DNA of 59,989 nt from Natrialba asiatica DSM 12278. Lineage in GTDB: Archaea > Halobacteriota > Halobacteria > Halobacteriales > Natrialbaceae. Shown here piece by piece: positions 8,191-11,385 of the stretch (positions are counted from its first letter, which is position 1; every line of letters starts with the position of its first letter). Location: assembly GCF_000337555.1 (NCBI RefSeq), contig NZ_AOIO01000014.1:1-59989 (forward strand). The letters run 5' to 3'. Below the pieces are notes generated by a model that worked only from the letters and a program-made list of their open reading frames with translations, searched no databases and was not told the origin of the DNA. A program made the position numbers and the translations under genes.

Positions 8191-8571
8191 TCACTCGAGC
8201 GACGCAATCGCTTCGACTTCGATCCCGACGCCCTTCGGCAGCGCGGCGACCTCGATCGCGCTCCGGGCCGGCGGCTCGTCGTCGAAATAACTCGCGTACG
8301 TTTCGTTCATCGCGTCGAACGCCTCGATGTCGTCGAGGAAGACCGTGACCTTGAGGATGTCCGAGGGAGCCGCGCCCTCGGCTTCGAGCACCGCGACGAG
8401 GTTGTCGAGCGCCTGCTCGGCCTGCGTTTCGATCGGTTCGTCGTCGAGCACGTCGCCGTCCGTGGTAAGCGGAATCTGGCCGGCCGTAAACAGCAGCGAG
8501 TCGTCGGTCGTCGCCTGGCTGTACGCGCCGACCGCGGCGGGTGCCTCGTCGGTTTCGATGATCCGTTTCAC
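8191..8571 (-). CDS. ridA: RidA family reactive enamine/imine deaminase
   Basis: RidA hydrolyses 2-aminoacrylate and 2-aminocrotonate, the reactive products of PLP-dependent Ser/Thr dehydratases, to keto acids and ammonia. The 126-residue protein shows AVGAYSQA near the N-terminus and PPARSAIEVAALP, with the substrate-binding Arg at about 103, then a Glu in VEAIA. The best start is the GTG at 8571 (MKRIIETDEAPAAVGAYSQ); no ATG is available and the upstream TTG/GTG codons would add non-conserved residues. It follows ilvA by 69 bp on the same strand, which fits exactly the enzyme that generates its substrate. Confidence 0.93.
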   Translation of the reverse strand: MKRIIETDEAPAAVGAYSQATTDDSLLFTAGQIPLTTDGDVLDDEPIETQAEQALDNLVAVLEAEGAAPSDILKVTVFLDDIEAFDAMNETYASYFDDEPPARSAIEVAALPKGVGIEVEAIASLE

Positions 8572-8640
8572 AGGCACCAACTCTCGACGATCGACCTTAA
8601 ATGCAAGCGAAACGGCTCCGCCCCGCGACGGGGTGCGTGG

Positions 8641-9852
8641 TTACGCCAGCGTATCGACCGGATAGCCGTCCTCGCGAAGCGCCTCGAGAAACGCATCGAC
8701 GTGGTCGGGACCGCGCATCTCGAGTTCGATTTCGACTTCGGTATCGCTCATCTCGACCTCACGCGAGGTGCGGTCGTGGTGGATCGCGTAGATGTTGACC
8801 TGGTACTCGGTGAAGATTTCGAGCAGTTGTTCGAGCGCGCCGGGTTGGTCCTTGAGGACGGTCCGGATCTTCAGGTAGCGACCGGTTTCGACGAGGCCGC
8901 GGACGATGACGTTGGTGAGCGTGTTGAGGTCGATGTTCCCCCCGGAGAGGACGGGGACCACGGTTTCGCCCTCGTCGTAGTCGAACTTCTCGAACAACAG
9001 GGCGGCGAGGGGGACCGCGCCAGCGCCTTCGACCAGCGTCTTCGACCGTTCGAGCAGGTAGACCGTCGCGACGGCGATTTCGGGGTCCGAAACGGTGACG
9101 ACCTCGTCGACGTGCTCTTGAATGTGGCGAAACGGCTTCTCGCCGACGCTCCGTGTTGCGATTCCGTCGGCGATCGTGTCGACGCCGTCGAGCGCGATCC
9201 GCTCGCCCTTCTCGAGCGATTTCGCCGCGCTCGAGGCGCCGTCCGCCTGGACGCCGATGACACGGGTGTCCGGCTTGCGCTCCTTGATTGCGGTCGCGAC
9301 GCCGCTGATGAGTCCGCCGCCGCCGATCGGGACGACCACGGTGTCGGGATCCGGGCAGTCCTCCAGAATCTCGAGGCCGATCGTTCCCTGGCCCGCCATC
9401 ACGAACTCGTCGTCGAAGGCGTGGACGTAGGTCCGATCCTCCTCGCGTTCGAGTTCGTGTGCGCGCTGGGCGGCCTCGTTGTAGTCGGTGCCGGCGAGGA
9501 CGACCTCGGCACCGTAGTTGCGGGTCGCCTTGACCTTCGAGATGGGGGCGTGCTCGGGCATGACGATCGTCGAATCGACGCCGGAGCGTGTCGCGGCGAG
9601 GGCGACGCCCTGGGCGTGATTCCCTGCGCTCGCGGTGACGACACCGGCGTCCTTCTCGGCGTCCGAGAGCGTCGCGACGCGGTTCGTCGCGCCGCGGATC
9701 TTGAACGAGCCAGTGCGCTGGAAGGTTTCGAGTTTCAGGTGGACTTCGGCACCGGTCATCGACGAATAGGTGTGTGAATATTCCAGCGGTGTGTGTCGGG
9801 ATGTTTCACGGACTCGGTCGAGAGCCTCGAGAACGGCAGTAAGATCGAGCAT
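8641..9852 (-). CDS. ilvA: threonine ammonia-lyase (threonine deaminase) with ACT domain
   Basis: IlvA converts threonine to 2-oxobutyrate and ammonia, the committed step to isoleucine. This 403-residue form has the PLP-binding lysine at residue 51 in TGSFKIRGA, the ASAGNHAQG motif, the phosphate-binding GGGGLISG loop, and a single C-terminal ACT-like domain (about 325-403) for amino-acid feedback. I start at the ATG at 9852 (MLDLTAVLEAL). The open frame continues to a GTG at 9978, but the extra 42 residues contain no Asp or Glu and coincide with strong palindromes, so they are more likely untranslated leader. ridA follows downstream. Confidence 0.93.
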   Translation of the reverse strand: MLDLTAVLEALDRVRETSRHTPLEYSHTYSSMTGAEVHLKLETFQRTGSFKIRGATNRVATLSDAEKDAGVVTASAGNHAQGVALAATRSGVDSTIVMPEHAPISKVKATRNYGAEVVLAGTDYNEAAQRAHELEREEDRTYVHAFDDEFVMAGQGTIGLEILEDCPDPDTVVVPIGGGGLISGVATAIKERKPDTRVIGVQADGASSAAKSLEKGERIALDGVDTIADGIATRSVGEKPFRHIQEHVDEVVTVSDPEIAVATVYLLERSKTLVEGAGAVPLAALLFEKFDYDEGETVVPVLSGGNIDLNTLTNVIVRGLVETGRYLKIRTVLKDQPGALEQLLEIFTEYQVNIYAIHHDRTSREVEMSDTEVEIELEMRGPDHVDAFLEALREDGYPVDTLA

Positions 9853-9993
9853 ATGCGTGACTATCGGGCAACTACTGTAAGACTGTCGGGGAAGACTCGA
9901 GCGGGCGGCCCACCCCCACCCCGACAGGACAGGAGCGTGTTGCCGGACCGGCAACACGACAGGGAACAGGGAATGCACGGCGTGTGACGTGCG
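9853..9993 (-). promoter_or_regulatory. structured 5' leader of ilvA (possible attenuator or riboswitch)
   Basis: A TATA box (10016-10026) predicts transcription from about 9993, leaving a leader of about 140 nt. It contains a 23-bp palindrome (9936-9958: CGTGTTGCCGG, one base, CCGGCAACACG) and a second perfect stem CTGTCGGGG/CCCCGACAG (9883-9891 with 9919-9927). The 27-nt loop of the second stem holds GGGC-C-GCCC and, on the RNA strand, the G-rich run GGGGTGGGGGTGGG. Most haloarchaeal mRNAs have almost no leader, so this is exceptional. No known riboswitch class was recognised. Confidence 0.55.
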
Positions 9994-10015
9994 AGTGTAG
10001 ACGAGAACGCAGGAA

Positions 10016-10026
10016 CCATAAAACCC
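10016..10026 (-). promoter_or_regulatory. TATA box upstream of ilvA
   Basis: GGGTTTTATGG on the minus strand is the only good TATA box in the 384-bp spacer between citrate synthase and ilvA, and it sets the leader length. The rest of the spacer (10030-10190) shows only an imperfect AGGGGTGC/GCACCTCT stem near 10119-10151. Confidence 0.5.
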
Positions 10027-10194
10027 ATCCCTCCAAAGTGAAAGTGAAATCGGCGGACGGCGTCGGGGGATCTGAGGCGTCAGACGTCCGGCGGACGACT
10101 GTCATCTACGGCTGAAAGGGGTGCGATATCTCGAACACGGTGCACCTCTCCCTCGCCGGTACGAGAGTGCAACCCGATGCGTCGGCGCTCGTCC

Positions 10195-10236: not shown

Positions 10237-11385
10237 TTATCGGTCGTCGATCGAGACGAACTCCCGTGTGTCCGGACCGGTGTAGCGGGCTCGCGGGCGG
10301 ATGAGGCGATTATCCTCCTGATATTCGAGGACGTGTGCGATCCAGCCCCCGGCACGACTCATGGCGAAGATCGGGGTGTACATGTCGATCGGGATGCCGA
10401 GCTGGTAGTAGACCGAGCCCGAATAGAAGTCGACGTTCGGGGCGATGCCCTTCTCGACTAAGCCCTTCTCCTCGGTGAGGTACTGTTCGATGGTCGTGGT
10501 GTAGTTGTACCACTTGGATTCGCCGTTTTCGGCGAGTTCTTCGCTGCGTTCTGCGAGGATCTTCGCTCGGGGGTCTTTGACGTTGTAGACGCGGTGGCCG
10601 AAGCCCGGAATCCGACGGCCTTCCTCGGTGGCTTGTTCGATCCATTCGCGGTGATCGAGGTCGCTCTCGTCGATTTCGATCAACACTTCCATGACGTCCT
10701 GATTCGCGCCGCCGTGGAGCGGTCCGGAGAGCGCACTGACGCCGCCGGTGACGGCGCTGTAGATGTCGGCCATCGTCGAACCGATCACCATCGACGTGAA
10801 GGTGGAGGCGTTCAGGCCGTGATCAGCGTGCAGGATGAGTGCCTGATCGAACGTTTCGGCGGCGATGTCGTCCGGTTGCTCGCCCGTCAGCATGTAGAGG
10901 AAGTTGGCAGCCAGTCCCAGGTCGGGGCGGGGATCGACCGGCTCGTCACCGAGGCGATAGCGTTCGAAGGCGGCGAGTGCGGTCGGGATTTTGGCGGTGA
11001 TGCGGCGTCCCTGCCGGAGCGTCGCATCGAGGTCCTCCGGATCGGCGTCCGACTCGGGTTCGGTCGCCGAGAACATCGAGACGGCAGTTCGGAGCGCGGC
11101 CATCGGCCGTTCCTCGGCGTCGGCGAGGCGCTCCATCGTCGAGAGCACGTCGTCGCTAACCGTCCGCTCCTCGGTCAGCGCATCGGTGAACGACGCGAGT
11201 TCATCCGCGTTCGGGAGGTGGCCGTGCCAGAGGAGGTAGAGGACTTCCTCGTAGGATGCGCCACGGGCGAGATCCTCGATCGTGTAGCCGCGGTAGATCA
11301 GCTGTCCCGCGTCACCGTCGATCGAGCTCAGGTCGGACTCTGCGACCAGTACGCCCTCGAGCCCTTTTTTAAGGTCGTCTGCCAT
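10237..11385 (-). CDS. gltA: citrate synthase
   Basis: Citrate synthase condenses oxaloacetate with acetyl-CoA at the entry to the TCA cycle. The protein has 382 residues, the usual length for archaeal and Gram-positive type enzymes. Active-site regions are HADHGLNAS (186-194), GPLHGGANQ with the catalytic His at about 224, and GFGHRVYNVKDPRA with the substrate-binding His at about 264. I start at the ATG at 11385 (MADDLKKGLEGVLVAESDLS). The upstream frame is open to 11577, but those residues cover the promoter. A TATA-like AATACTTTTCC lies about 26-36 bp upstream. It is monocistronic, with a U-tract after the stop. Confidence 0.96.
   Translation of the reverse strand: MADDLKKGLEGVLVAESDLSSIDGDAGQLIYRGYTIEDLARGASYEEVLYLLWHGHLPNADELASFTDALTEERTVSDDVLSTMERLADAEERPMAALRTAVSMFSATEPESDADPEDLDATLRQGRRITAKIPTALAAFERYRLGDEPVDPRPDLGLAANFLYMLTGEQPDDIAAETFDQALILHADHGLNASTFTSMVIGSTMADIYSAVTGGVSALSGPLHGGANQDVMEVLIEIDESDLDHREWIEQATEEGRRIPGFGHRVYNVKDPRAKILAERSEELAENGESKWYNYTTTIEQYLTEEKGLVEKGIAPNVDFYSGSVYYQLGIPIDMYTPIFAMSRAGGWIAHVLEYQEDNRLIRPRARYTGPDTREFVSIDDR

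Follow-up and report, generated by a model that had tools for sequence, protein, structure and literature searches.

Does the structured DNA just upstream of ilvA in Natrialba belong to the ilvA messenger, or is it a gene in its own right? The window that we analysed, 59,989 bases of a Natrialba genome, carries on its minus strand a citrate synthase gene (stop codon at 10237), an intergenic region, ilvA, and a gene of the RidA family (8191-8580), in that order. ilvA itself (8641-9852, minus strand; ATG at 9852, stop at 8641) encodes a threonine dehydratase with a PLP-dependent enzyme fold (Pfam PF00291, E=2.1e-88), and a weak ACT domain in its product (PF01842) falls below the Pfam cut-off. 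A preliminary description of this DNA had proposed that the ilvA transcript begins near 9993 and carries a leader of about 140 nt, folded around two inverted repeats, that could serve as an attenuator or riboswitch. Judged from comparison with related genomes, the most likely reading is that the element forms a small RNA gene independent of ilvA, here called RNA-A, lying between citrate synthase and ilvA.

Structure and distribution of RNA-A

The two repeats of the preliminary description are indeed present: an 11-1-11 palindrome (9936-9946/9948-9958) and a 9-bp stem with a 27-nt loop (9883-9891/9919-9927), both 100% complementary. The palindrome is the sole perfect inverted repeat in the window with arms of at least 11 and a loop of at most 8 (mean of 0.5 in shuffled sequences). 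The 9-bp stem is ordinary by itself: before de-duplication the window has 41 entries of this kind, and shuffles average 15.3. The interval first described makes up the 3' portion of a conserved element that extends further, and conservation is strongest upstream of that interval (about 9945-10050, minus strand); a hairpin at 9975-9992, a promoter block at 10018-10049 and a TATA-like box at 9876-9881 had been overlooked. RNA folding gave z-scores against shuffles of -2.7 for 9852-9993 and -3.0 for a 65-nt core (9930-9994).

On the strength of this core and of a match to covariance model R1 (9935-9992), we predict that RNA-A is a small non-coding RNA at 9883-9994 on the minus strand. Its start is placed at about 9994 (±3) from the distance to a TATA-like box (TTTTAT, 10018-10023, minus strand), and the earlier suggestion of a structured RNA starting near 9993 is thus borne out at the level of prediction. 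The 3' end is given as either after hairpin 2 (9936) or after hairpin 3 (9883), and no clear U-tract terminator was seen by eye, a point against our reading.

Hairpin 1 (GCACG-UCACACGC-CGUGC, 9975-9992, minus strand) has a loop, UCACACG, that is nearly invariant both in alignment A1 (27 elements) and in a profile over 177 loci; by eye, the stem letters differ in other families and the loop stays the same. Part of the invariance in the 177-locus profile is built in, because some of those loci were picked by the exact hairpin-1 pattern; the TATA box, the UV motif and the ilvA box discussed below played no part in that choice. Next comes a C-rich single-stranded linker (9959-9974, minus strand), AUUCCCUGUUCCCUGU in the window and AUUCCCUGUAUUCCCUGU in relatives, which is unpaired in the fold, contains repeated AUUCCCUGU in the alignment of 27 elements, and is a candidate pairing region.

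Hairpin 2 (9936-9958, minus strand) is the palindrome itself. The preliminary description had named covariance in related species as a check on the structure, and this hairpin does covary: in the 27 sequences of alignment A1, six of its nine pairs show two-sided changes (20 such cells, a level that none of 500 shuffles reached), accompanied by G-U intermediates, and in the same pair count slid alternatives to the structure score far worse. Hairpin 3 (9883-9927, minus strand), the 9-bp stem with its G-rich loop, is clear only in a subset of loci. It recurs as a perfect inverted repeat of at least 7 bp at the same place in 32/177 loci, with arms that vary on both sides (CTGTCGGGG/CCCCGACAG versus ACTATCGGG/CCCGATAGT).

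RNA-A is present in Natrialbaceae, Haloferacaceae and several more haloarchaeal families. A blastn search with 9850-10060 matched 37 of 61 relative genomes, most strongly over the promoter and the RNA's first ~50 nt. By blastn, 15/15 Haloferax genomes have the element. At E<=0.01, model R1 matched 129 genomes out of 392 in the order, among them 92 of 96 from the same family; R1 was drawn with helix 2 one to four columns off, and its matches rest on sequence and hairpin 1, the pair count for hairpin 2 having been made on the corrected structure, apart from R1. In family f5, 110/170 genomes have the exact hairpin-1 core, against 0 for the backward control. Among the matches listed (80 of 98), the genera with the element are Natrialba, Natrinema, Haloterrigena, Natronorubrum and Halostagnicola, as well as Haloferax, Halorubrum, Halobellus, Haloquadratum, Halobaculum and others. 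By eye, the layout of RNA-A also precedes ilvA in families f7, f8, f12, f14, f16 and f17, with a loop of the UCACAC or UCACGC type and partly different stem letters (for example GCGCG-UCACACGCUU-CGCGC in f17); it is doubtful in f6 and was not seen in f3, f10 and f11, with one genome inspected for each. Four weak covariance matches (L137, L143, L144 and L148) were rejected as RNA-A, having neither ilvA downstream nor a TATA box at the right place; three of them read as sites like those of RNA-B, described below, on the other strand.

The earlier note had recognised no known riboswitch class, and the Rfam scans agree: at gathering thresholds the window yielded only a tRNA, and a permissive scan of the region yielded only F6 at E=9.8. 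The plasmid collection returned only a chance-like match of 30 bases. In the open-access literature we found no description of RNA-A as a family and no UV-linked archaeal sRNA.

Two promoters and the relation to ilvA

Both RNA-A and ilvA appear to be preceded by promoters of their own. In 176 of 177 loci a TTTAT-like box is found at -32 to -24 relative to the RNA start (none in the control window), which places the TTTTAT of the window at a conserved distance. Ahead of ilvA, the sequence CTTACA (9876-9881, minus strand) is the predicted TATA-like box of a separate, leaderless promoter: TTA occurs at -31 to -23 of the ilvA ATG in 157/177 loci (control windows, 1 and 0), with the box about 28 nt before the ATG. 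This is a leaderless distance, and the ilvA start is therefore predicted at 9852. The span between the RNA start and the ilvA ATG ranges from 75 to 1,287 nt (median 146; 177 non-redundant loci). The upper extreme is a Haloquadratum walsbyi contig (L235), in which RNA and ilvA stand 1,287 nt apart with some 1.1 kb of extra DNA between them. Since both boxes hold their place despite the variable spacing, two start sites are indicated, the second of them leaderless, and ilvA appears to be transcribed leaderless from its own promoter.

The two genes are nevertheless close companions. Among the fetched covariance-model and blastn loci, ilvA lies downstream of the element in 107/113 (the exceptions being L045, L050, L137, L143, L144 and L148), and in a second locus set in 107/110, with all three exceptions at locus ends. 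Two genomes, G023 and G019, carry true elements away from ilvA, adjoining other genes (in G023 a thermosome-like gene, as we take it to be), and ilvA, located elsewhere in both, still has a TATA-like box.

Near-constant linkage to ilvA is not something that an independent trans-acting RNA needs, and it is a point against our reading. It could be explained if RNA-A were a small RNA with a second, cis effect on ilvA, exerted when it is transcribed or read through, whether by interference with the ilvA promoter or by way of a minor long mRNA, for instance to lessen isoleucine synthesis after damage. Such a double use would account for the kept neighbourhood and for hairpin 3 adjoining the ilvA box, but the variable spacing, the two genomes without linkage and the extra ~1.1 kb in the Haloquadratum contig speak against it, and we consider it unlikely. 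At the ilvA box position TTA is missing from 20/177 loci, so that in some species read-through may play a part. Some read-through into ilvA, or a minor cis effect on it, may occur.

A single transcript running from about 9994 into ilvA, with a fold responsive to isoleucine, threonine or some other signal, is less probable still. The near-universal linkage, the conserved structure of the RNA and the position of hairpin 3 just ahead of the ilvA promoter in 32/177 loci would all suit a leader. They are set against a separate leaderless-type promoter for ilvA, a spacing of 75-1,287 nt that leaves no conserved expression platform, a hairpin 3 that is not a perfect repeat in 145/177 loci, free-standing copies in two genomes, the empty Rfam result, and a promoter motif that belongs to a UV set and is not common to ilvA. 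Thus neither the ~140-nt leader nor the attenuator or riboswitch of the preliminary description was upheld. That description had held that a transcript start close to 9852, or a lack of structural conservation in relatives, would speak against its proposal; the structure is conserved, and 9852 is the start that we predict for ilvA.

We give very little probability to a role at the DNA level, in which a transcription factor would bind the repeats and palindromes as operators and no stable RNA would be made or needed. AUUCCCUGU-type repeats do occur at other promoters on either strand, and hairpin 1 is nearly invariant. However, hairpin 2 covaries through G-U intermediates, a complete promoter stands at a fixed distance ahead of the structure, and a small RNA has been reported beside ilvA-1 in H. 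mediterranei, according to the part of PMC5852579 used here. Finally, we can practically dismiss the idea that the region encodes either a small protein translated from a leaderless mRNA or additional N-terminal residues of IlvA: in the window no stop codon interrupts the ilvA frame as far as a GTG at 9978, and the ORF (8641-9978) has no D or E ahead of the ilvA start, as first described, but over the 177 loci no frame is conserved (RNA-to-ATG distances modulo 3 of 55/60/62), the ilvA frame is open in only 85, and none has an ATG in RNA nt 1-40, which bears out the earlier view that the region is unlikely to be protein. It is because of the two promoters, the free-standing copies and the frame that is not kept that we regard RNA-A as a separate non-coding RNA gene.

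A UV-B motif and a predicted complementary RNA

The promoter of RNA-A carries an upstream element, TTTCACTTTCA (10039-10049, minus strand), that is identical to a published UV-B motif of Halobacterium. In the parts of PMC2556686 drawn on here, this 11-bp motif is described for four UV-B induced genes of Halobacterium NRC-1 (radA1, top6B, vng17 and vng280) and for the radA promoters of further haloarchaea, and its regulator is left open. The full TTTCACTTTCAC...TTTAT pattern spans 10018-10049 in our window. With at most two mismatches, the motif lies at -62 to -40 in 172 of 175 RNA-A loci (the 177 minus two too short upstream), and a control window 400 nt upstream always has at least five mismatches and the ilvA promoter always at least three. 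From these counts it follows that RNA-A, and not ilvA, bears the damage motif.

A search of seven Natrialba genomes for TTTCACTTTCAC-spacer-TTTAT returned the radA promoter in 7/7 and the RNA-A promoter in 6/7 (backward control, 0); the copy in G002 differs by one base, and G005 has one additional site. In L422 and further loci from Natrialba, the TTTCACTTTCAC-TATA block was also noted upstream of radA. The pattern is found in 77/117 genomes of the order, at one to five promoters each (backward control, 1), and the genes behind these promoters can be taken as candidate members of a damage regulon. The RNA-A promoter suggests a DNA-damage regulon, not isoleucine control, and RNA-A is probably damage-linked. 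Upstream of this promoter, at 10078-10101, there is a further imperfect dyad, and strings like GTCAGACG/GGCGGACG stand at much the same position in relatives; it might be a second regulatory site.

In relatives of Natrialba, the linker has a possible counterpart. Its common form has the reverse complement ACAGGGAATACAGG, which was found at 14 places outside RNA-A in 111 genomes of the family (backward control, 0). Seven of these share a layout of TATA box, ~31 nt, hairpin and 14-mer, in an orientation opposite to that of RNA-A, and a model built from them (R2) matched 42/111 genomes at E<=1, with 28 loci below 1e-3 including the seven model sequences. We call this predicted RNA, found in several Natrialbaceae genera (L337, L340, L341, L343-L345, L336 and L369-L398, in the last series near position 1500), RNA-B. 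It has its own TATA box, a 5' hairpin that covaries (5/7 pairs with two-sided changes among 23 aligned sequences) and the sequence ACAGGGAAURCAGG, and is mostly divergent to a gene for an HTH_10-type regulator (divergent to a gene in 7/10 loci, the product being an HTH_10 regulator in one scanned case).

The mean predicted pairing energy of RNA-A with RNA-B in 27 genomes is -44.3 kcal/mol, against -27.6 (sd 4.6) for shuffled RNA-B, a difference that is partly built in because RNA-B loci were first picked by complementarity to RNA-A. Cognate and non-cognate pairs gave no covariation signal (means of -44.3 and -44.5 kcal/mol), since RNA-A hardly varies. RNA-B was not found in Natrialba (0/7 genomes) and is therefore no part of the window; this, like the lack of a covariation signal, tells against our reading of RNA-A. 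In the same seven genomes the linker complement has, besides RNA-A, nine scattered matches versus eight for the backward control. Taken as a predicted partner, RNA-B lends support to a pairing role for RNA-A, and it is also of interest by itself as a second predicted small RNA.

Similar sites were seen in other settings. In L346 and L348, from two genera, RNA-B-like sites lie ~100-140 nt upstream of an mcm-like gene, presumably the replicative helicase gene mcm; we rejected them as mRNA targets, since by eye a separate TATA box for mcm seems to lie downstream of the site. In L335 and L339, CCTGTATTCCCTGT stands directly upstream of a tRNA-like sequence, and the two stretches, from genomes that belong to different genera, appear to be identical.

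Proposed role and comparison with known systems

We consider it probable that RNA-A is a gene switched on by damage along with radA, that its linker pairs in trans, and that ilvA is transcribed separately and leaderless. Comparison between genomes shows the promoter layout, the RNA-type covariation, the independence from ilvA and the UV motif. After UV or other DNA damage, a regulator acting at TTTCACTTTCA would turn on radA and RNA-A together, and the promoter formed by TTTCACTTTCA and the TATA box would start a short non-coding RNA at about 9994. RNA-A would then expose its C-rich linker between two hairpins and pair in trans with G-rich sites in other RNAs; in several genera RNA-B may titrate it or act as its partner, and ilvA would be transcribed apart from the leaderless promoter just downstream. 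We infer the induction from the shared motif, and the trans pairing from the unpaired linker together with the complementary RNA-B genes of relatives. It is tempting to go further and suppose that a damage-induced RNA-A, ancestral to much of the order, acts in trans in an SOS-like response, with RNA-B, in several Natrialbaceae genera, as a dedicated antisense RNA encoded in trans, a sponge or partner that binds the linker and the hairpin-1 loop; this wider picture is speculative, and we would sooner expect it to fail than to hold. If the induction is true, the haloarchaeal UV motif would be tied to a non-coding RNA, in a compact damage-response circuit found in culturable species such as Haloferax.

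Bacterial C-rich sRNAs pair with G-rich sites, and RNA-A resembles them in having an unpaired, repeated C-rich stretch between hairpins; we claim no homology. Haloarchaeal mRNAs are mostly leaderless, and target sites would for that reason differ from bacterial ones. The UV-B genes of Halobacterium NRC-1 are alike in carrying TTTCACTTTCA ahead of the TATA box, its distance from the start being roughly equal; the four are annotated as protein genes, however, whereas RNA-A is non-coding and is not named in the parts of PMC2556686 drawn on.

A closer parallel may be HM6_V of H. mediterranei, one of 88 sRNAs, RNA-seq-supported, which Table 2 of PMC5852579 places on the minus strand (401880-401997) between HFX_0430 (ilvA-1) and HFX_0431, with a length of 117 nt. 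Like RNA-A it is intergenic and lies beside an ilvA gene. In H. mucosum, a related species with 173 nt from RNA-A to the ATG, a 117-nt RNA fits the span from the RNA-A start to the TATA box of ilvA. The suffix of its name suggests that it was found via an H. volcanii sRNA. It differs in that the part of PMC5852579 consulted lists it without a structure family, promoter motif or function. Matched by size and place only, HM6_V is probably the RNA-A of H. mediterranei.

Among the sRNAs of H. volcanii, H225.2R, hts10 and htsf359 are intergenic and conserved in more than 10 haloarchaea (PMC3956466), as RNA-A is intergenic and conserved; RNA-A may even be identical with one of the three. In the same study, 22/27 sRNAs have no homologue outside H. 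volcanii. Unlike these mostly unconserved haloarchaeal sRNAs, RNA-A, whose structure, promoter and promoter motif are all conserved, can be traced over several families of the order.
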